From Halohasta litorea (lineage in GTDB: Archaea > Halobacteriota > Halobacteria > Halobacteriales > Haloferacaceae), in contig NZ_JANHDJ010000002.1 of NCBI RefSeq assembly GCF_024494645.1, forward strand, positions 372,001-436,000: a stretch of DNA of 64,000 nt, given 5' to 3'. The notes under the pieces are model-generated. The model did no database searches and was not told the DNA's origin. It saw only the letters and a list, made by a program, of their open reading frames with translations. Numbering within the stretch: position 1 is the stretch's first letter; every line of letters starts with the position of its first letter. Made by a program: the position numbers and the translations under genes. Shown here piece by piece: positions 3,543 through 31,971 of this stretch.

Positions 3543-5797
3543 TTGTGTTGCACCTCTCGCATGACTGCCCGCGTCGTCAGTTCGGCCGATGCTGGCGAGT
3601 AGTCGCCCTCACACAGCGTGGCGATCGTGTCGTCTTTGAGCTGTTCGGTGACCGTCCCCGTCGGTGGCTCCTCCCACTGCCTGGGGTCGAACTCCGGATA
3701 GATCCGCTTGACATCCGCCCAGTCGTATGACTCCAAGACTGCGCGAATCACCGGAATCGAAGTCAGGTCGACGTTGTCGATCGAAAAGCCCTCGTCGCGG
3801 TGTTCCCACGCGTACCGATTCAGCGCGGTGATCACCTTCTCCCGACGGAACTCCTCGACCGCGGCCGAGGGCGCGTTGCCTCTGTAGTCGCCCGAATCGA
3901 ACCGGCCCAAATGCTCGGTTTCGAATACCTTCATCAACAGCGGATCGGGGTCGACGCGGCCGCGTTCGGTCTCGATTTGGCTGTCGGCCTCCCACGCGTA
4001 GACGTGTTCGACGTACTCGGCGACCGTCTCTTTCGAGACGCTCTTGCCCGACAGCAGCGCCTGCAGGACGGCGTCTTCCTGCTGGTCGAGCACGAAATCC
4101 TTCACCGCGGGGAGTCGGTTCTCGTACTCGGCGGCTTCCGCGCGCGAGAATACCGGTGTAGTCGAGAGCTCCTCGGCCATCGCGTTCAGCACGTCCTCGG
4201 GCATCACCACGTTCTCGACGGGGTGATCGGGGTGGCCGCGGCCGGTCTCCTCGTGGAGCAGATCCGCGATGATATCGCGGGTGTAGGTGACGGGAATCCC
4301 GTGGGTACCGTCGGAGGTGGCAGTGATCTCGAAGGCGTCGATCGATCGGCGGTCGTCGCCGTCCTGGAGATATCCCTGCTCGAACAGCCGGGCCTTCTCG
4401 ATCAACGAGAGTTCCGAGGGTAGCTCCTCGCCGTCGAGCCGACTGACGACGCTGTACATCGCCGCCGCCCCGATCGCAAACGGCGCGAGTTCGCGCTCCC
4501 GCGTCTCGCCGCGGCCGTCGCGGATCGCAATCGACAGCGGGGCCCGGACTCGGCGCTCGATCTCCTCGTCGTCGAGATCAGCCCAGACGCTCTTTTCGGC
4601 GGTCAGTTCCCGCCGGATGAGCTCGGCCTCCAGCCGCCGGTTGGTCAGATACCGGAACTCATGGCGATCCAGCCGCCGTTTTAAAGCCTTCAGCGGATCG
4701 CGGCCGTTGCGGTCGGCGTACTGATCCAATTCGGCGTCCAGATCCGGGTTCGAGATCATCACCAGTTGGGTGTCGATATCCATCCCGATTCCTTTGTCCA
4801 GTTTCACGCGTCCCTCATCGGGAACGTTCAGGAGTTTGCGGAGCAGATCGGCGTGCTGGCTGGCGTCCTCGACGACCGTCAGCAGGCTGTTGCCCTGCGA
4901 GAGCACGCCGTCATAGCTGAACGCCTGTGGGTTCTTTCGGCCGCGAGAATCGAGCTCCCGCAACATTCCGGGCATCCAGGAGCCGACCAGCCGCTCCTTG
5001 GGGCTGCCGTCGTCCTCGGAGTGGAGAATGCCGATTCCCCGGCCCACGTCGACGATGTAGTTGGTCACTCGGAGATGGCTCCGGTCGGTGATCGACGAGA
5101 ACAGTTTCCGGGTGCCCGCCTGCCGGTAGTTGGATTCGAGGTAGTCGTAGGCCTCCCGGCTGAAGGGATCGAGTTCGCCGTCGATGACGATCGGTGGCCC
5201 CTCGGGATCGACCTCGTTGAGCCGGGCCAGCAGGTCCTCACGGACGCTCTTGGGGAAGATTGTCAGCGGGTGGACCTGCACGGGACTTTCGTACCACTGC
5301 TCGTCGTCGCTGGCCTCGTCGCCGTAGCTCAGTCCGCGGCTGTTGTCCGCGCCCGTAATGTTCCATTCGAGCGTGTAGCGCCGCCCCTCGGGCGTCTTGG
5401 AGTACTCCCGCAGCCCGTTGACCAAACAGCGCTTGAGCTCCGATTTGCCCGTCGCCGTCGGGCCGTCGAACCAGATGATCTTCTCGCCCTTGCCGCGGTT
5501 GGCGGCGATCGTCCGCAAGTCGTCGACGAAGGCGTTGAGCACTGCCGTGTTGCCCAACACGGCGTGTTCGCCGTCGTTGTGTGGATCATCGAAAAAGCGG
5601 TATCGCTCCCGCTCTTCGCCCTCCTCGATCACCGTGCGGGTCCCCATCGACTCGATGGCCGCCAGTAGGTAGCGGCTGGCGTGGGCCGCGATGGAGGGAG
5701 ATTCGAAGGCCGCCTCGACGTACTCGTCGAGGCTCATCGGTCCCTCGTAGGCCCGCTGCAGTTGGCGGTCGGCGGCCGTGATGTAGTCTTCAGACAT
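3533..5797 (-). CDS. prkA2: PrkA family serine protein kinase, divergent paralog (PrkA2)
   Basis: A 754-residue PrkA-family protein: an N-terminal AAA+ ATPase module and a C-terminal PrkA domain. The P-loop GPTATGKS is at about residues 112-119. It differs from the first kinase of the operon (GPVGSGKS) in the P-loop and over most of its length, so the two are old paralogs rather than a recent duplication. Bacterial PrkA/YeaG phosphorylates proteins on Ser in stress and starvation, and some members have been reported to have protease activity. The gene starts inside the 3' end of PrkA1 (8-base overlap) and ends inside the DUF444 gene. Two non-identical AAA+ subunits encoded side by side suggest a hetero-oligomer, which is my inference. 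Confidence 0.88.
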
Positions 5798-7865
5798 CTT
5801 CTTCGAGCTCGCTTTTGGCGACTTCCGCCCCAGCGAACTCCAGGACTTCCCGCGCCCCCTCTTCGGAGTAACCCTGCTCGCGGAGAGCGTCGATCCAGGC
5901 GCTGCGCTCGTCGTCGTCGAGCTCGTTGGCCGAGACCAACGCCGAGAAGTTGATGTTGTGTTTCTTGTCCTCCCAGAGCTTGCGCTCCAAGGCGCGGCGG
6001 AGCCGGTCGTTGTCCTGTGGGTTGAAGCTAATTCCCTCGCGGGCGCGCCGGGAGACCCAGTTGGAGACCTCCTGGCGGAAGTCGTCCTTGCGGTCGGCCG
6101 GAATATCCAGCTTCTCCTCGACCGACCGTAGGAACGTCTCGTCGGGCTCCTGCTCGCGGCCAGTGAGCTCGTCGGCGACGGTGGCGTCGTCGATGTAGGC
6201 CATCACGTGGTCCATGTACTTCTCACCCTGGCGCTGGATCTCGTCGAGATCGTAGGCGAGTGCGTGACGGACGTCCTCGATAGCCCGATTTTTGTACTCC
6301 TCGCGGACCATCTCGAGGTAGCGCTGGTAGCGCTCGAAGTTTTCCTCCGGAATGGAGCCGTGGTTTTCGAGGTTCTCCTCGAAGTGGCGGAACGTCGTCA
6401 GGGGACTCAGATAGCTCCGCCCGCGGTGGGTCGAGTCCATGATCGCCTCTGCGATCTCGTCGCCGATAAACCGCGCCGAGACGCCGTCCATTCCCTCGGC
6501 GATGTCGGATTGGGTCTCGCCGTCCTCGCGGAGTTTTTTGACATCGACGTCGTCGTCATCCAACTCGCCGTTGTAGGCTTTGGCCTTCTGGACGAGTGTG
6601 ACTGATTCGTCGTTCGGTTCGACGATTCGCGTCAGCACGCCGAACAGCCCCGCCATCTGGAGGGTATGGGGCTCGATGTTCATGTTGGGTACGTCGGCGT
6701 TCCGGAGCATTTTGCCGTAGATTTCGGCCTCCTGCTCGTACTCCAGGACGTAGGGGTAGTCGATGCGTTTGGTCCGGTCGTTGAACGCCTCCATCTTCTC
6801 GTCGCCCTTTTTCTCCCTGTATTCGGGCATATTCGTCCGGCCGACGATCACCTGGTCGATGTCGATACGGGGGTTGTTTTTGGGTTTAATCGTCTGTTCC
6901 TGCGAGGCGTGCAGGAAGTCATAGAGGAACTCCCGCTGAAGCTTGAGGAGCTCCTCGCCGGAGAAGATACCGCGGTTGGCGTTACAGAACGCCCCGGCGT
7001 AGTCGAAGGCTCGGGGGTCCGATTCGCCGTAAATGGCGAGTTTCGAGTAGTTGACGTCCCCCGTCAGCTCCGTCTCGTCTTGGTTCTTCTTGTCCTTCGG
7101 CTCGAAGGTCTCGACGGCCTGGCGTTTGTTCTCGCTGGCGACGAGTCGGATGATCTCGATGTGGTTGTTGAACACCGCCTTGAGGTCGTCGTCGTACTCT
7201 GCGAGCAGCCGATCCATGTAGAACTCGCTGGCGGGGTCGAGATGCTGCTCGTTGCGGATGGTGTACGGAGCCTCAAGCTGCTCGTTGAGTCCCTCGATTA
7301 TCATGTCCCGCTGCTCCTGTGGCAGCAAGACGAGCGGATCCTGGTGCATCGGCGACTCGACAGTGTCGTCGGCGGGGTCCTGATCGCGGATCACGTCACA
7401 GAGGTTGACCCACCGGAAGGTGTACATCCGGCCGCCCTCCTGGAGGGTGTAGTTCTCGAAGTACCGTCGGACGAGCCAGTCGAAATGGGACTTGCCCGAC
7501 CCCACGGGACCGAGGAGGAGTTTGATACGTTTCTCGGGGCCGAGCCCACGGGCACCGGATTTGACCTTGTTGACGAACTCGTGGATCGATTCGTGGACCT
7601 CCCGCCCGTAGAACACGTTTTCACCGTCGTGTAAGGGGTCTTCGGAGGCCATCGTATACTCGACGACCCCGGCGTCCTCGTCGTAGGTGGTGCCGTAGTG
7701 GTCGAACATATCGGCAACGCGTTGGTGGGCGTTGCGGGCGATCCGCGGATCGTCGGTCACCTCGTCGAGATACCAATCGAAGGTCTTGGCTTCGCGGAGG
7801 TCTTCGGGAACCGATGCTTGGTAGTGCTGACTGAGGCGTTCGAGGGTTTGTCTGTCGTTGCTCAT
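5790..7865 (-). CDS. prkA1: PrkA family serine protein kinase (PrkA1)
   Basis: A 691-residue PrkA-family AAA+ protein kinase, the first gene of the operon. The P-loop GPVGSGKS is at about residues 119-126, preceded by the family-typical DPLHDGENVFYG stretch, and the C-terminal PrkA domain fills the last third. I chose the ATG at 7865 (MSNDRQTLERL) because the acidic, halophile-like composition begins there. The reading frame remains open upstream to 8264, but that extension is rich in Cys, Trp, Arg and Ser and lies in the leader downstream of a good TATA box at 8126-8132. The long leader of about 235 bases is unusual in a genome where most promoters here give leaderless messages. Confidence 0.9.
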   Translation of the reverse strand: MSNDRQTLERLSQHYQASVPEDLREAKTFDWYLDEVTDDPRIARNAHQRVADMFDHYGTTYDEDAGVVEYTMASEDPLHDGENVFYGREVHESIHEFVNKVKSGARGLGPEKRIKLLLGPVGSGKSHFDWLVRRYFENYTLQEGGRMYTFRWVNLCDVIRDQDPADDTVESPMHQDPLVLLPQEQRDMIIEGLNEQLEAPYTIRNEQHLDPASEFYMDRLLAEYDDDLKAVFNNHIEIIRLVASENKRQAVETFEPKDKKNQDETELTGDVNYSKLAIYGESDPRAFDYAGAFCNANRGIFSGEELLKLQREFLYDFLHASQEQTIKPKNNPRIDIDQVIVGRTNMPEYREKKGDEKMEAFNDRTKRIDYPYVLEYEQEAEIYGKMLRNADVPNMNIEPHTLQMAGLFGVLTRIVEPNDESVTLVQKAKAYNGELDDDDVDVKKLREDGETQSDIAEGMDGVSARFIGDEIAEAIMDSTHRGRSYLSPLTTFRHFEENLENHGSIPEENFERYQRYLEMVREEYKNRAIEDVRHALAYDLDEIQRQGEKYMDHVMAYIDDATVADELTGREQEPDETFLRSVEEKLDIPADRKDDFRQEVSNWVSRRAREGISFNPQDNDRLRRALERKLWEDKKHNINFSALVSANELDDDERSAWIDALREQGYSEEGAREVLEFAGAEVAKSELEEDV

Positions 7866-24887: not shown

Positions 24888-25394
24888 CTACTCGTCGAAC
24901 TCCTCGGAGAAGGGGTCGTCGGAGAACGGATCGTCCGAGACCGGTCCGCCTTCGTCGGCGCGGCTGATGTCGACTTCCTCGGGCGAGCGCCCGGCGGCAT
25001 CCAGGATCTCATCGGAGACGGAGATCGGACATTCGACCCGGACGGCCAGCGCGATCGCGTCGCTGGGGCGGGCATCGAAGACGAACCCTTCGGGTTCGCC
25101 GTCGTCGTACCGTTCGGCGTCGATCTTCGCATAAAAGGTGCCGTCGGCCAGGTCGTCGATGCGCACGCCGTCGATCGCGCCGCTGAACTCCGTGACCATC
25201 TCGACGAGTAGATCGTGGGTGAGCGGTCGCTCGAACGGTTCGCCCGAGAGCGCAAGCTGGATCGATTGGGCCTGGTCGGCCGTCACGAAGATCGGGAGAT
25301 ACTCCTCGCGCGCCGTGAGGATGACCGCAGGGACGTTCTCGCCCTCGGGTCCGACGCCCATGCCGATCCCCGTTACCTCCGCGGAGTGGTCCAT
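24888..25394 (-). CDS. DUF151 / bifunctional nuclease family protein
   Basis: A 168-residue protein of the DUF151 (bifunctional nuclease-like) family. Family hallmarks are ILTAREEYLPIFVTADQAQSI near residues 26-46 and the FDARPSDAIALAVRVECPI block near 106-125. Bacterial and plant homologues have been described as nucleases or stress regulators; the activity in archaea is not established. The C-terminal 25 residues are an acidic repeat (DDPFSDDPFSEEFDE). The ATG at 25394 (MDHSAEVTG) is used; the longer frame overlaps the divergent TraB start. Confidence 0.88.
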   Translation of the reverse strand: MDHSAEVTGIGMGVGPEGENVPAVILTAREEYLPIFVTADQAQSIQLALSGEPFERPLTHDLLVEMVTEFSGAIDGVRIDDLADGTFYAKIDAERYDDGEPEGFVFDARPSDAIALAVRVECPISVSDEILDAAGRSPEEVDISRADEGGPVSDDPFSDDPFSEEFDE

Positions 25395-25494: not shown

Positions 25495-27180
25495 ATGAGC
25501 GAACCAGCGGACCCGGAACCCTCCGGCGGCGAGGGACGGGTAAGTGTCGTTGGGACCGCCCACGTCTCCGAGGCCAGCGTCCGTGAGGTCGAAACACGGA
25601 TTGCCGAGGACAAACCGGACATGGTGGCGGTCGAACTCGACGAGGGACGGTACCGACAGCTACAGGGCGAAGAACCCGATGACCTCGACGCCAGTGACCT
25701 CCTGAAAGGCAATACGGTCTTTCAGTTTCTGGCCTACTGGATGCTCTCCTACGTCCAGACCCGACTCGGTGACCAGTTTGACGTCGAACCCGGCGCGGAT
25801 ATGATGGCCGCCATCGAGACGGCCGAAAAACACGGCTGCGGCGTCGCCTTGGTCGACCGAGACATCCAGGAGACGATCCAGCGCTTCTGGGCGCGGATGA
25901 CGATCACCGAAAAACTGCGGATGGTCGGCGGCCTCGCCTTCGGCGTCACCGATAGCCGCGTGGTCGGGATCATGGTCGGGCTGATCGTCGGCCTGCTCGC
26001 CGGCCCCGTCCTCGCGCTGTTCGGCGGCACCCTCGGCATCACCGAGGCGATCTATCTGCGGGCCGCAAGCGGCGCGCTGCTCGGCCTCGGCACCGCGCTC
26101 GTGGTCGACCAACTGGCTGGCCTCGCCCTCGGTGGCGACCAGCGTCTTGCAACCGCCGTCGGCAGCGGCGGCGTGGTCGGCATACTGGCGGCGGCCACCG
26201 GCCTCGCAGACAGCCTCATCGGGAGCTATCTGGGTGGCTTTACGATCACCATCGTCGGCAGCCTCGCGCTGGGGCTCGTCGGCGGCCTGCTGTTCGGCCT
26301 CGTCGCAGCCGCAATTATCGGCCTTCGGGGGTCGACCCAACCCGAGACCGAGGGGCTCGACGAGATGGATATCGAGGACCTGACCGATGCCGACGTGGTG
26401 ACGGTGATGATGGAGGAGTTCCGCCAGTTCAGCCCCGGCGGTGCCGAAGCCCTCATCGACGAACGCGACGCCTACATCGCCCACCAACTGGTGGGGCTCC
26501 GGCAGGCTGGCTACGACGTGCTGGCGGTCGTCGGCGCGGGCCACCGCGAGGGGATCGAGGGATACCTGGCCGATCCGTCCACGCTGCCGCCGATGGAGTC
26601 GCTGACCGGCGAGGAAAAAGGCAGTCGACTGCCGTGGGGCAAGCTCGTCGGGATCGTGCTGTCGGTCGGCTTCGTGGCCTTCTTCATCCTACTTGCGATG
26701 GCCGGGGTCCAGGACGGCTTCCTGCTGCGGCTGTTCGGCGCGTGGTTCCTGATCAATGGGATCTTCGCCGCCGGGTTCGCCAAGCTGGCTGGCGCACGAT
26801 GGTCCTCCGCAGGCGTCGGCGGTGCGGTGGCGTGGATGACCTCGATCAACCCCGCCCTCGCGCCGGGCTGGTTCACTGGCTACGTCGAACTCCGACATCT
26901 CTCGGTCAACATCGGCGACATCTCGACGCTCAACGGCCTGCTGTCCGACGAGACCAAGCCAGTAGGGGAAATCCTCTCGGAGATGTTCGAGGTGCCGATG
27001 TTCAAGCTGATCATGATCGTCGCACTGACCAACGTCGGCTCCATCGTCGCCAGCGTGCTGTTCGTGAGCTACATCCTCCCGCAGTTCGGTACCGAGTTGG
27101 GTGGCGTTGAGGGAATCTCGCGGCTGATGTTGGATGGGGCCCGTAACAGCGCCGAACTCATCTGGAGTACCCTCACATGA
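25495..27180 (+). CDS. TraB/PrgY/GumN-family membrane protein (Tiki-type metalloprotease motifs)
   Basis: A 561-residue membrane protein. The N-terminal TraB domain has the two GxxH motifs of the TraB/Tiki family: GTAH near residue 20 and GAGH near 345, with the conserved Glu in VAVELDEGRY. Between and after them lie many membrane helices rich in Gly/Ala (about residues 155-290 and 385-560). Tiki homologues in animals are membrane metalloproteases, so these residues could be catalytic; TraB/PrgY of Enterococcus quenches a peptide pheromone. The stop overlaps the start of the site-2 protease (ATGA), so the two proteins are made together. The start at 25495 (MSEPADPEP) was chosen over the longer frame, which runs antisense into DUF151. 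Confidence 0.88.
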   Translation: MSEPADPEPSGGEGRVSVVGTAHVSEASVREVETRIAEDKPDMVAVELDEGRYRQLQGEEPDDLDASDLLKGNTVFQFLAYWMLSYVQTRLGDQFDVEPGADMMAAIETAEKHGCGVALVDRDIQETIQRFWARMTITEKLRMVGGLAFGVTDSRVVGIMVGLIVGLLAGPVLALFGGTLGITEAIYLRAASGALLGLGTALVVDQLAGLALGGDQRLATAVGSGGVVGILAAATGLADSLIGSYLGGFTITIVGSLALGLVGGLLFGLVAAAIIGLRGSTQPETEGLDEMDIEDLTDADVVTVMMEEFRQFSPGGAEALIDERDAYIAHQLVGLRQAGYDVLAVVGAGHREGIEGYLADPSTLPPMESLTGEEKGSRLPWGKLVGIVLSVGFVAFFILLAMAGVQDGFLLRLFGAWFLINGIFAAGFAKLAGARWSSAGVGGAVAWMTSINPALAPGWFTGYVELRHLSVNIGDISTLNGLLSDETKPVGEILSEMFEVPMFKLIMIVALTNVGSIVASVLFVSYILPQFGTELGGVEGISRLMLDGARNSAELIWSTLT

Positions 27181-27824
27181 GTCTCGGCTACCGGATCGCG
27201 GGCTACGAGTTCAGCCCGACCGAAGTCCGTGACCTGCTGGTCGCGTGGCTCGCACTCGGGGTCGCCTTCGCTATCTTCTTTGCTGGCGGCGGGCCGAACA
27301 TTGCCACCCTGATTTTTGTCCCTCAGTTACTAGTCGTGAGCCTGCTGACCGCTGGCGTGGCCTTCCTGCTCCACGAGGTCGCTCACAAGGTCGTTGCGGT
27401 CCACTACGGCCAGCTCGCTGAGTTCCGCGCCGACTACAGTATGCTGTTTCTGGCGATCATGTCGGCGCTGATCGGCTTCATCTTCGCCGCGCCGGGGGCG
27501 GTCCACCATCGTGGGTATTTAAATGAGCGGGAACACGGCCACATCGCCATCGCCGGGCCGGTGACGAACCTGCTTTTGGCCGCGGTCTTCTTGCCCGCCT
27601 ATCTCGGCGGAACTGCGCTGAGCGTCGACCTGCTGGCCACGCTCGGCCGGTTCGGGATCATCATCAACCTCTTTTTGGCCGCCTTCAATCTCGTTCCTTA
27701 CGGCCCGCTCGACGGGAAGACGGTCAAACGCTGGAGCACGCCCGTCTGGCTCGGGACGTTCCTCCTGTCTGCCCTGCTGACGGTCGGCTCGATGCTGTCG
27801 ATCGGCCTTAGTTTCCGGATATAG
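27177..27824 (+). CDS. Site-2 protease family membrane metalloprotease (M50)
   Basis: A 215-residue intramembrane metalloprotease. The zinc-binding HEVAH is at residues 66-70 in a membrane helix, and the third ligand Asp is in the later NLVPYGPLDGK motif, as in S2P/SpoIVFB. Six hydrophobic segments are predicted. No PDZ or CBS domain is present, so it is the compact archaeal form. Its ATG overlaps the TGA of the TraB gene. Because both genes encode putative membrane proteases, they may act in sequence on a common substrate (regulated intramembrane proteolysis); this is inference. Confidence 0.9.
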   Translation: MSLGYRIAGYEFSPTEVRDLLVAWLALGVAFAIFFAGGGPNIATLIFVPQLLVVSLLTAGVAFLLHEVAHKVVAVHYGQLAEFRADYSMLFLAIMSALIGFIFAAPGAVHHRGYLNEREHGHIAIAGPVTNLLLAAVFLPAYLGGTALSVDLLATLGRFGIIINLFLAAFNLVPYGPLDGKTVKRWSTPVWLGTFLLSALLTVGSMLSIGLSFRI

Positions 27825-27867: not shown

Positions 27868-29280
27868 ATGGAGAGCATCAACCCCGTGACCGGCGAGCCA
27901 CTCGACGAGTACGAAACACACGACACCGACGACATCGACACCGCCCTCAGCAATGCCGAGACTGCGTTCGACGACTGGAGCCAGCAGTCGATAGCCCACC
28001 GAGGGACGCTTCTTCAAAAGACCGCCGAGCGACTCGACGAGCGCGTCGAGGAGTACGCCGAGCTGATGACCCGCGAGATGGGCAAACCCATCGAACAGGC
28101 CCGCGCGGAGGTCAAAAAATGCGCGTGGGTCTGTGAGTATTACGCCGAAACCGCCGCCGAGCATCTCCAGGACGAGGTGATCGAAAGCGACCCCGATGCC
28201 CGGACGCTCGTCAGCTACGAGCCGCTCGGCCCGATTCTGGCGATCATGCCGTGGAACTTCCCGTTTTGGCAGGCCTTCAGATTCATCGCGCCGAATCTCG
28301 CGGCTGGCAACGTCGGCCTCCTGAAACACGCCTCGAACGTCCCCGGCTGCGCGCTGGCCATCGAGGCAGTCCTGGAGGACGCCGGGCTGCCGGAGGGGGT
28401 TTTTCAGACGCTCCTGATTTCGTCGTCGGAGGTCGACCCCATCATCGAGGACGACCGCGTCGCCGGTGTCACGCTTACCGGCAGCGAGGGTGCGGGTCGC
28501 GCCGTCGGCAGGAAAGCGGGCGAGCAGCTCAAACCCTCGGTGTTGGAACTCGGCGGCAGCGATCCGTTCGTCGTCCTGGATGATGCACCGATCGAAGCCA
28601 CCGCCGAGCGCGGAGCGTTTGCCAGGCTCCAGAACACCGGCCAGTCCTGTATCGCTGCCAAGCGCTTTATCGTCCACGACGCGGTCTACGACGAGTTCGT
28701 CGACGCCTTCGTCGACGAGGTCGAGGCGCTCACCGTCGGCGATCCGATGGACGAAGCGACCGACATCGGCCCGATGGCTCGCCCGGATCTACGCGAGGAT
28801 CTCGACGACCAGATCGAGCGCACCCTCGACGCCGGGGCCGAACTCCTCACCGGCGGGGAGGCGGTCGACGGCGAGGGAGCCTACTACCAGCCGACCGTTC
28901 TCACGGAGGTCCCCTCCGACTCCGCGGCCGCGACCGAGGAGACGTTTGGCCCGGTCGCCAGCGTCACCCGCGTCAGCGACGAACAGGAGGCCATCGAGGT
29001 AGCGAACGATACCGACTTCGGGCTCGGCGCGAGCGTCTGGACGAGCGACCTCGACCGCGGCGAGGCCTTCGCCCGCCGGTTCGAGGCCGGACTCTGTTTC
29101 GTCAACGAGCTCGTGAAATCCGACCCCCGCTTGCCGTTCGGCGGCGTCAAGAACTCCGGTTACGGCCGTGAACTGAGCCGACACGGGATTCGGGAGTTCG
29201 TCAATGCGAAGACGATCTGGGTCCAACACGGTCTCGGCGAGGGCGAAACGGGCGACGATTCGTATGCGGGAGTCGAATAA
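27868..29280 (+). CDS. NAD(P)-dependent aldehyde dehydrogenase (succinate-semialdehyde type)
   Basis: A 470-residue aldehyde dehydrogenase of the succinate-semialdehyde type. Landmarks are ILAIMPWNFPFWQAFR, the catalytic Glu in VLELGGSDPFVVLDD and the nucleophile Cys in NTGQSCIAAKR. The end matches PFGGVKNSGYGRELS. Substrate specificity cannot be read reliably; succinate semialdehyde is the usual assignment in haloarchaea. It is followed 31 bases later by an acetolactate-synthase-like gene on the same strand, possibly co-transcribed. Confidence 0.88.
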   Translation: MESINPVTGEPLDEYETHDTDDIDTALSNAETAFDDWSQQSIAHRGTLLQKTAERLDERVEEYAELMTREMGKPIEQARAEVKKCAWVCEYYAETAAEHLQDEVIESDPDARTLVSYEPLGPILAIMPWNFPFWQAFRFIAPNLAAGNVGLLKHASNVPGCALAIEAVLEDAGLPEGVFQTLLISSSEVDPIIEDDRVAGVTLTGSEGAGRAVGRKAGEQLKPSVLELGGSDPFVVLDDAPIEATAERGAFARLQNTGQSCIAAKRFIVHDAVYDEFVDAFVDEVEALTVGDPMDEATDIGPMARPDLREDLDDQIERTLDAGAELLTGGEAVDGEGAYYQPTVLTEVPSDSAAATEETFGPVASVTRVSDEQEAIEVANDTDFGLGASVWTSDLDRGEAFARRFEAGLCFVNELVKSDPRLPFGGVKNSGYGRELSRHGIREFVNAKTIWVQHGLGEGETGDDSYAGVE

Positions 29281-29311
29281 TGAGCCGACCGGATCAGACG
29301 GGAGGCGATCG

Positions 29312-30907
29312 ATGAGACAGACGGGCGCGGAGCTACTGGTCGACTGTCTGGAGGCCGAAGGCGTCGAGTACGTCTTCGGGATTCCGGGCGAGGAGTTGGA
29401 AGATATTCTGTTTGCGATTCGGGAATCGCAAATCGAGTTCGTGCCGACGCGCCACGAACAGGGCGCGGCGTTCATGGCCGACGTGCACGGTCGACTCACC
29501 GGCGAGGCTGGGGTCTGTCTCGGGACGCTCGGTCCAGGAGCCACAAATCTCCTGACGGGGGTTGCCGACGCCCACCTCGATAAGGCCCCGCTGGTCGCCC
29601 TCACCGGCCAAGGCGGGCTTGAACGGCTCCATCAAGAGAGCCACCAGGCCCTCGACGTTCCGGATATCTTCGAGTCGGTCGTCAAATGGAACACGCAGAT
29701 CGACGACGACCGGATCATCGCCGAATCGGTCCGCAAGGCGTTCAAACTGTCGACCTACGAGAAACCGGGCGCGACCCAGATCGAACTCCCCGAGGACGTG
29801 ATGGCCGCTCCGGCGGATGGCGAGCCACTGCCGGTTCGGGACCGAGTGCGTCGGCCGAGTCCCGATCCCGACTCGCTGCGGCGGGCCGCCGAGGCGTTCG
29901 CGGCCGCCGATCGACCGATCGTGCTTGCGGGCAACGGGGCGGTTCGGACGGATGCCGTGACCCAGCTCCGCTCGTTCATCGAGCGGACCACGACGCCAGT
30001 GGTGTCGACCTACATGGGAAAGGGCGCAGTCTCGGACCGCAGCGAGCAGTCGCTGTTCACGCTCGACTCGGGGCCGGACGACGAGGCAGCCGACGCGGTC
30101 GCGGCCGCGGATCTCGTCCTCGCAGTCGGCTACGATATCGCCGAACACGACCCCGAGAAGTGGAATCCAGATCGAGAGAAAACGATCCTCCATCTGGACC
30201 ACGAACCGGCGGAGGTCTACAGCCACTACAATCCGACCGTCGAACTCGTCTCCGATATCGGTGCGGGGATCGAGGGGCTGGGTTCGGCACTCGACGAGGT
30301 CGGCGCGACGGTCGAGACTGACTCCCTGTGGTGTGCCGAGGCCCACGAGACGATCCTCGAAGATGCCCGAAGCGAGCCCGACGCCGAGCCGTTTACGGTC
30401 GCCGGGACCGTCTCGCTGCTCCGGTCGGCGATGGCCGATTCGGACATCCTGCTCTCGGATGTCGGTAGCCACAAACTAACTATTGCCCGGCGGTTTCCGT
30501 CCTACGAGCCCAACACCTGCCTGATCTCCAACGGACTGGCGAGTATGGGCATCGCCCTGCCGGGCGGGATCGCCGCCGATCTCGCGGTCGACGACAACGT
30601 CGTCGTCGCCAACGGCGACGGCGGCTTTCTGATGAACGCCGCCGAGCTGGAGACCGCAACACGGCTCGGCTGTAGTTTTACCGTGGTCGTCTTCGTCGAC
30701 GACGATTACGGACTCATTTCGGCCAAACAGGCCGACCACCGTGGCGAGGCCTTCGGCACCCAACTCACGAACCCGGATTTCGTCGCGTTCGCCGAGAGTT
30801 TCGGGGTCGACGCATACCGACCCGACGACTGGGACGGGCTCGGTCAACTCCTTGAAGCACAGCTCCCAAGCGATACCCTCTCGTTGATCGAAGTTCCGCT
30901 TGGCTGA
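29312..30907 (+). CDS. Acetolactate synthase-like thiamine-diphosphate enzyme, large subunit
   Basis: A 531-residue ThDP-dependent enzyme of the acetolactate synthase type. The N-terminal PYR domain has FGIPGEE and the activating Glu in TRHEQGAAFMA; the central domain covers about 185-315; the ThDP-binding motif is GDGGFLMNAAELETATR near 430-450, ending VDDDYG where most members have NN. No FAD-interaction features beyond the family core can be judged. There is no small regulatory subunit beside it, so it is a stand-alone, perhaps catabolic (AlsS/BudB-like) or other ThDP enzyme. ATG at 29312 (MRQTGAELL) begins at the conserved family start. Confidence 0.82.
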   Translation: MRQTGAELLVDCLEAEGVEYVFGIPGEELEDILFAIRESQIEFVPTRHEQGAAFMADVHGRLTGEAGVCLGTLGPGATNLLTGVADAHLDKAPLVALTGQGGLERLHQESHQALDVPDIFESVVKWNTQIDDDRIIAESVRKAFKLSTYEKPGATQIELPEDVMAAPADGEPLPVRDRVRRPSPDPDSLRRAAEAFAAADRPIVLAGNGAVRTDAVTQLRSFIERTTTPVVSTYMGKGAVSDRSEQSLFTLDSGPDDEAADAVAAADLVLAVGYDIAEHDPEKWNPDREKTILHLDHEPAEVYSHYNPTVELVSDIGAGIEGLGSALDEVGATVETDSLWCAEAHETILEDARSEPDAEPFTVAGTVSLLRSAMADSDILLSDVGSHKLTIARRFPSYEPNTCLISNGLASMGIALPGGIAADLAVDDNVVVANGDGGFLMNAAELETATRLGCSFTVVVFVDDDYGLISAKQADHRGEAFGTQLTNPDFVAFAESFGVDAYRPDDWDGLGQLLEAQLPSDTLSLIEVPLG

Positions 30908-30981
30908 GCCGTTGCTGTCGTTCCCGCTTCTCTGAGGGTCGAATCACCGTGTTTTTGTGTTCACTCCGCGCCCCTTGAGAC

Positions 30982-31971
30982 ATGACTGACGACGACGGAT
31001 CTGCTGACGAGGAGGAACTCACCTACGCCGACTCGGGTGTCGACATCGAGGCCAGCGAGGCCGCCACCGCCGCGCTCATCGGCGCGACCGGCGACAGCGA
31101 AGGCGATTACGCGGGTCTGCTCGACATCGGCGACCGCTATCTCGCACTCGCCACCGACGGCGTCGGCACCAAACTGCTGGTGGCCGAAGCCCTCGAAGAC
31201 TACTCGACGATCGGGATCGACTGCATCGCGATGAACGTCAACGATCTGGTCGCCGCGGGGGTCCGACCGGTCGCCTTCGTCGACTATCTCGCAATCGACG
31301 AACCCGACGAGACGTTCGCCGAACAGGTCGGCGAGGGACTCGCTGCCGGTGCCGAGCAGTCTGATATCGAACTTGTCGGCGGCGAAACCGCCGTGATGCC
31401 CGACGTCATCAAGGGTCTGGATCTCGCCGGAGCCTGCGCCGGGCTGGCGGCCAAAGACGCCCTCTTCGAGGGCGAGGCCGAACCGGGCGACACGCTCGTC
31501 GGCTGGGAGTCCTCCGGCATTCACTCGAACGGACTCACGCTGGCCCGAACAGCGGCAACAAAAAACCACGCATACACCGATTCGTTCCCCCACGAGGGGT
31601 ACGAGACGGTCGGCGAGGCGCTCCTGGAGCCGACCCGGATCTACACGGACCTGCTCGATCCGATGCGCGAGGCCGGCGTTCGGGGGGCGGCCCACATCAC
31701 CGGCGGCGGCTGGACCAACCTCGAACGACTCGGCGACAATCGGTACGTTGTCGACGACCTGTTCGACGCCCAGCCGGTCTTCGAGTTCGTCCAGCGGGAG
31801 GGCAACGTCTCCGACGAGGAGATGCACACCACCTTTAATATGGGCACTGGCTTTGTCGCGGCGGTGGGCGACGAAGCGGCCGCCGAGTCGCTGGCCGAAT
31901 CGACGGACGGCCACGTAATCGGCCACGTCGAAGACGGTGAGGGCGTTTCGATCCGCGGACTCGAACTCTAA
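30982..31971 (+). CDS. purM: Phosphoribosylformylglycinamidine cyclo-ligase
   Basis: A 329-residue AIR synthetase, the fifth step of purine biosynthesis (FGAM plus ATP to AIR). Signature elements: TYADSGVDIEA at the start, the ATP-binding LATDGVGTKLL near residue 58, CIAMNVNDLVAAG near 81-93, the ELVGGETAVMPD block and GAAHITGGGWTNL. Length is usual for the family. It stands alone with its own upstream region (74 bases from the preceding gene) and is followed by a hairpin at 31996-32009. Confidence 0.93.
   Translation: MTDDDGSADEEELTYADSGVDIEASEAATAALIGATGDSEGDYAGLLDIGDRYLALATDGVGTKLLVAEALEDYSTIGIDCIAMNVNDLVAAGVRPVAFVDYLAIDEPDETFAEQVGEGLAAGAEQSDIELVGGETAVMPDVIKGLDLAGACAGLAAKDALFEGEAEPGDTLVGWESSGIHSNGLTLARTAATKNHAYTDSFPHEGYETVGEALLEPTRIYTDLLDPMREAGVRGAAHITGGGWTNLERLGDNRYVVDDLFDAQPVFEFVQREGNVSDEEMHTTFNMGTGFVAAVGDEAAAESLAESTDGHVIGHVEDGEGVSIRGLEL

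Follow-up and report, generated by a model that had tools for sequence, protein, structure and literature searches.

A conserved gene pair for a TraB/Tiki-family membrane protein and a small site-2 protease in Halohasta litorea and its linkage in other families of the phylum

The window analysed here is a 64,000-nucleotide (nt) stretch of the genome of Halohasta litorea (G000:C23:372001-436000; G, C, L and f are our handles for genomes, contigs, loci and families), and positions below are window positions unless a locus or genome is named. Two overlapping genes on its plus strand encode a TraB/Tiki-family membrane protein of 561 amino acids (aa), here called TraB (25495-27180; open reading frame (ORF) with PF01963 and TIGR00261 matches), and a small site-2 protease (S2P, M50) of 215 aa (27177-27824; identified by ORF, motifs and model). 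The ATG of the S2P gene overlaps the TGA stop of the TraB gene in a 4-nt ATGA (27177-27180, plus strand). When the ORFs were re-read, the coordinates, frames and motifs (GTAH, VELDEGR, GAGH, HEVAH, NLVPYGPLDG and ATGA) were as an initial annotation had given them. We found that the two genes form a real and durable gene partnership of two known families, kept throughout the window's family and linked in genomes beyond the haloarchaea.

The window TraB scored 98.4 bits against PF01963 (curated cut-off 26.8) and 249.2 bits against TIGR00261 (curated cut-off 178.35). It carries the motifs GTAH (residues 20–23), VELDEGR (46–52, including E47), D121-R122, DERD (322–325) and GAGH (347–350), and consists of two TIKI halves (about 14–150 and 290–365), a membrane insertion between them (about 154–277) and a C-terminal membrane part (about 381–560). 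GTAH, E47, D121-R122, DERD and GAGH were invariant in 28 aligned TraB sequences (the window and 27 genus representatives). Among named haloarchaeal proteins, H23 and E47 were kept in 62 of 63 and H350 in all 63, the lone H23/E47 exception (L076) coming from an assembly in which TraB is split between frames (G081). Residues H23, E47, D121, R122, E323, G347 and H350 were also invariant in a wider set of 16 TraB sequences, 13 of them non-haloarchaeal.

In the predicted model of TraB (m47c6526fa2de, pLDDT 81.6), four long helices form a glycine-rich membrane insertion that splits the TIKI domain, and the C-terminal membrane part follows this domain. This model aligned with a TraB-family subunit of Tetrahymena complex IV (Z 13.4, root mean square deviation (rmsd) 4.3, 215 residues aligned), with ChaN (Z 8.9, rmsd 4.0, 143 aligned) and with Ere-type esterases (Z 5.5–5.9; EreC Z 5.9, rmsd 3.8, 134 aligned), values to be read beside the Z of up to 5.6 that unrelated structures reached on the membrane part. 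Foldseek placed three relevant rows on top, followed mostly by transporters. A search of PDB sequences with TraB profile A1 gave no match at E <= 0.1, and the wider profile A6 retrieved the Tetrahymena TraB-family protein (E 3.5e-4) and one unrelated chain (0.51). By its curated match, both GxxH motifs with the Glu residue and its TIKI/ChaN/Ere fold, the window protein belongs to the TIKI superfamily. The label metalloprotease is carried over to archaeal TraB from Tiki, and its peptidase activity is putative; moreover, TIKI residues need not imply metal-dependent proteolysis, because a TIKI-family endopeptidase has been reported to be metal-independent (PMC6254334). The closest solved structures to the window TraB, PDB 7w5z_E and 8b6h_DQ, are the 'TraB family protein' of ciliate respiratory complex IV, and in their aligned region NQWH occupies the place of the second GxxH motif.

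The small S2P has HEVAH at residues 66–70 and NLVPYGPLDG at 171–180. Its own score against Pfam M50 (PF02163) was 21.6 bits, under the cut-off of 27.2, and all three distant orthologues tested lay above it (40.8–43.8 bits). HExxHK, N171, P174 and D179-G180 were invariant both in the 28 aligned sequences (window plus 27 genus representatives) and in all 57 named haloarchaeal sequences. In the predicted model (pLDDT 92.2), helix 49–76 has HExxH close to its end, and D179 comes directly past helix 151–171. Foldseek ranked MJ0392 (3b4r) first for this model (E 3.4e-3, prob 1.00, TM-score 0.44). VIA-align gave Z 8.5–8.7 against RseP (best: rmsd 3.7, 133 aligned), Z 8.6 against SpoIVFB (rmsd 4.3, 143 aligned) and Z 8.5 against MJ0392 (rmsd 3.8, 145 aligned), on a scale where a designed helical protein gets Z 8.8 and a Z below about 13 may mean little for helical bundles. 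Since these values are low, the S2P assignment is carried by the motifs. At E <= 0.1, a search of the window's own genome (3.8 Mb) for M50 gave six matches, of which two are halves of a single gene and one is very weak. The window S2P shares 75% identity with that of Halonotius terrestris, and the named relatives fetched were from haloarchaea.

TraB was found in all 99 sampled genomes of the window's family and the small S2P in 98; in each of these 98 the S2P gene follows TraB immediately downstream in the same orientation, the two matched stretches being -4 to 289 nt apart. These pairs include some genes that match in two pieces (TraB of G031, G081 and G086, and S2P of G027). The remaining genome, G041, is 62% complete in about 540 contigs; it gave no S2P match, and the roughly 1.1 kb of contig beyond its TraB hold no S2P. 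The 4-nt overlap occurred in 21 of 28 loci taken one per genus. All 80 named haloarchaeal loci had a TraB match within the same stretch, and the gap was -4 in 48 of the 72 that could be measured, start codons outside the window being script-assigned; of the other eight, seven had no TraB start assigned and one had its S2P cut by a contig end. The 28-sequence alignments do not include L019 (contig end), L050 (no S2P found) or L051 and L052 (broken genes). Extra copies lacked partners: no TraB was found in the stretches surrounding the additional S2P-like genes of G040 and G050 (L045 and L046), nor an S2P in those surrounding the additional TraB copies of G006 and G010 (L048 and L049). In L048 (G006:C11), an open frame of 958 residues at about 3631-6507 of the reverse-complement strand has the second TraB domain close to its end; the stretch shows no S2P match, and the frame is possibly a fusion of TraB to a further N-terminal part.

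To place the pair in the phylum, TraB, small S2P and a second type of S2P were located in 196 genomes of 30 families; these genomes are related, and the linkage counts below are not independent events. The second type was recognised in deep loci, where it lies upstream of TraB; it has an M50 domain and two CBS domains (2 of 2 tested) and is of the MJ0392 kind (3b4r, E 2.2e-62); the MJ0392-type protein of the window genome itself is encoded by a separate gene (G000:C28:53105-54217). TraB was present in 191 genomes and adjoined an S2P gene in 109 of them, in 19 of the 30 families. The linked genomes comprised 17 triads (CBS-S2P, TraB and small S2P), 59 with CBS-S2P only and 33 with small S2P only. 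A gap of up to 1000 nt was allowed between CBS-S2P and TraB, as many TraB matches start about 430 nt inside the gene. G119 and G145, which fell outside the gap threshold because the TraB match overran, were counted as triads on reading their loci (automatic count 15 triads, 61 CBS-S2P only, 33 small S2P only and 82 unlinked). In two f9 loci that were read, the distance from CBS-S2P to TraB was about 240–250 nt, and in 4 of the 5 unlinked f9 genomes CBS-S2P lay 1.2–2.1 kb upstream on the same strand. The window's order, TraB followed by small S2P, was seen in 32 of 33 genomes of f1 to f7, with G223 as the exception.

In deep loci the genes form a longer string, in which divergent Thg1 and PRC genes are followed by CBS-S2P, TraB, small S2P, an aspartate-kinase-like gene and a purM-like (AIR synthase, AIRS) gene. 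In the window, the purM-like gene of this string lies at 30982-31971, separated from the S2P gene by genes for an aldehyde dehydrogenase and a TPP (acetolactate-synthase-like) protein (27868-30907). On the other side, a bifunctional-nuclease-domain gene (24888-25394, minus strand, assigned by domain match) is divergent from TraB. Among 28 loci of the window's family, the purM-like gene was 3' of the pair in 24 at variable distance, the bifunctional-nuclease gene preceded the pair in 19 (at about 90 to 2,700 nt from TraB), and homologues of the aldehyde dehydrogenase and TPP genes were each in 6 of the stretches. The neighbours identified around the pair are mostly metabolic genes, and no pheromone is known for it, although no search aimed at a precursor was made. 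On the PRC-gene side the ancestral string is flanked by a gene for a TrkA_N and DHH/DHHA1 protein (L061, 9250-10845, minus strand), a neighbour also present in L058, L060, L062, L063, L160 and L169. An ORF on the strand opposite the purM-like gene (30961-31926) is less conserved and looks like a shadow frame.

The purM-like gene allowed the linkage to be compared with that of the surrounding string. Of the 196 genomes, the 150 for which a position of the purM-like gene was listed were usable for this purpose, with the provision that contig breaks in fragmented assemblies can hide nearness. TraB and S2P were linked in 104 of the 150, and in 58 of these 104, belonging to eight families (f3, f9, f11, f15, f20, f23, f28 and f29), the purM-like gene was more than 10 kb off or on another contig. 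Seven loci chosen as linked (from f9, f11, f20, f23 and f28) were read; CBS-S2P and TraB were adjacent in them, and no aspartate-kinase-like or purM-like gene was found in their stretches. On balance, the TraB-S2P link is more durable than the link to the purM-like gene, and the three arrangements are explained by a single ancestral string that split differently in different lineages. The initial annotation had described the pair accurately, and the conservation of its neighbourhood and of the GxxH residues in close homologues was borne out; what it missed is that the pair is the remnant of a larger string and that elsewhere a CBS-bearing S2P precedes TraB.

The side of the membrane on which TraB would act was considered from its sequence features. 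TraB has no signal peptide, and none of the 16 TraB sequences has a hydrophobic N-terminus. Four of them (L053, L054, L055 and L057, from two families; 229–243 aa) stop after the TIKI domain and have zero membrane segments, and these short forms still hold H23, E47, E323 and H350. Family f8 has both long and short forms. In L053 to L057 (f16 and f8), the TraB genes without the membrane part are still placed between two S2P genes; the TraB of L056 contains a stretch of undetermined sequence. The membrane insertion (25954-26325, residues about 154–277) was missing from all 13 sampled non-haloarchaeal TraB proteins and is variable in haloarchaea, with full-length matches in f1 and f4 and split matches without the insertion in f5, f6, f7 and part of f2. 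In all 12 long forms, the 12 residues preceding the first C-terminal segment contain 3–5 lysines or arginines, compared with 0–2 after it, and by charge count the remaining loops are mostly consistent with a cytosolic TIKI side. Since there is no signal peptide and some homologues are without membrane segments, the active site of TraB is predicted probably to face the cytosol.

We tentatively favour the reading that TraB and the small S2P are partners of one membrane-proteolysis module, with TraB on the cytosolic side handling S2P products. The small S2P, its active site directed to the cytosolic face, would cut transmembrane segments, presumably anchors or signal-peptide remnants. TraB would be fixed in that membrane so that its TIKI catalytic domain lies in the cytosol, a topology suggested by its sequence, and most likely would hydrolyse or capture the peptides that S2P releases at the same membrane face; alternatively, it might gate the S2P. 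The operon-like linkage, the conserved key residues and the modelled folds are observed; a physical or functional partnership of the proteins, the substrate and the order of action are inferred. A two-step regulated-proteolysis module, in which TraB was either the first cutter or a chaperone or inhibitor of S2P, had been proposed in the initial annotation. That the two act in a joint module is still the best, if unproven, reading of genes that are co-oriented, often overlapping and linked beyond the haloarchaea.

Several observations weigh against this reading. The pair is part of an older gene string that also contains housekeeping genes; the small S2P of G223 stays by the purM-like gene and is no longer with TraB; and 82 of the 191 TraB genomes are unlinked, eleven families being unlinked throughout (f5, f10, f12, f14, f17, f19, f24 to f27 and f30). 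In both f16 sequences (L053 and L054), the first GxxH is KTSH or KTAH, Lys replacing Gly. The TraB loop 278–292, on the presumed cytosolic side, is acidic rather than basic. The loop charges of the S2P give no clear orientation: the mean number of lysines plus arginines is 1.9 over the 13 residues that precede the first helix, 0.8 over 13 residues in the first loop, 2.6 over the 40 residues 77–116 and 1.4 over the 16 residues 172–187. Because they are not decisive, the cytosol-near position of its site is taken from the S2P family, whose active site lies near the cytosolic face. PrgY, the TraB homologue of Enterococcus, has a presumed extracellular site of action, opposite to the TraB topology favoured here (PMC7117660). 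In Methanococcus maripaludis, the CBS-domain gene MMJJ_07800 neighbours the TraB-like gene MMJJ_07810; the deletion of each was viable and transformation was normal, also on loss of the TraB-like gene (PMC10133366).

An alternative, unlikely in our view, is that TraB serves mainly as a regulator or anchor of S2P (a gate, inhibitor or assembly factor), its TIKI residues being for binding and not for hydrolysis. The overlap of the two genes fits such a role, overlapping genes being common for subunits of one complex, as do the many invariant residues in the C-terminal membrane part of TraB and the linkage with two S2P types, which would be expected of a general S2P partner. However, two families without this membrane part keep the TIKI His and Glu residues as well as the gene link, which points to a catalytic or ligand-binding role in the cytosol.

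It is likewise unlikely, and slightly less credible, that the adjacency is inherited synteny without shared function, left by a slowly eroding ancestral string. Because the pair belongs to the older housekeeping string, part of its conservation is plain synteny: the string includes aspartate-kinase-like, purM-like, Thg1 and PRC genes, the S2P of G223 follows the purM-like order without TraB, many genomes are unlinked, and the relatedness of the genomes adds to the same side. Yet the link stands in the 58 genomes whose purM-like gene is distant or on another contig, the 4-nt overlap is widespread, and within the window's family the pair stays closed though the distances to its outer neighbours vary.

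Classical regulated intramembrane proteolysis, in which TraB would make the first cut outside the cytosol, where a site-1-like cut is made, and S2P would then cut in the membrane, accords with the action of animal Tiki outside the cytosol and with the common need of S2Ps for a prior cut, but is highly improbable given that TraB has no hydrophobic N-terminus, that four forms have no membrane segment and that the lysine- and arginine-rich side of the first C-terminal segment is the TIKI side in every long form. The first-cutter role in the initial annotation is thus disfavoured by the predicted cytosolic topology, which instead favours an action of TraB, from the cytosolic side, on the products of S2P or on S2P itself.

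A bolder extension of the module, possible but doubtful, is that TraB/Tiki proteins are ancient cytosolic partners of S2Ps: in an ancestor belonging to this phylum of archaea, one TraB may have served both CBS-S2P and small S2P by clearing peptides or gating, and the Eep/PrgY circuit of Enterococcus may be a late, rewired case. Archaeal TraB proteins have no established role that we are aware of. No report of a TraB-S2P partnership was found in the openly licensed literature, judged by title or abstract; both families are known. Archaeal S2P targets are described as unknown in two reviews (PMC4343526, PMC9263693), and the word TraB is absent from the main texts of both papers. The durable paired locus gives each protein a candidate partner and a predicted membrane side. 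If the proposed module is true, the TraB/Tiki family would gain a functional context that reaches further than animal Wnt control and the pheromones of enterococci.

Compared with the known systems, the window TraB shares with Tiki, TraB and PrgY of the TIKI superfamily the family matches, the GxxH motifs with the Glu residue and the TIKI/ChaN/Ere-type fold, and differs in its predicted cytosolic catalytic domain and in the glycine-rich membrane insertion within the TIKI domain. The window S2P shares with MJ0392 (M50 plus CBS, structure 3b4r) the HExxH, the N-x2-P-x4-DG zinc site and an aligning model, whereas it is only about 215 aa long, has no CBS domains and shows 20–21% identity in structural alignments. 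Of the four S2Ps of Haloferax volcanii, one carries CBS, one carries PDZ and two have no added domain, and their role is given as unknown; the latter two, HVO_1555 and HVO_1862, were seen in the proteome (PMC9263693). Both are domain-free like the window S2P, and one or the other may be its ortholog. A precedent is found in Enterococcus, where Eep, a protease of the M50/S2P type, and the TraB-family PrgY meet on one peptide. After its release by the metalloproteinase Eep, the pheromone is presumed to be broken down by PrgY, a homologue of TraB (PMC7117660). In that system, however, eep is chromosomal, prgY is plasmid-borne and PrgY is presumed to act extracellularly, whereas the genes described here are overlapping neighbours and the TraB domain is predicted to be cytosolic.

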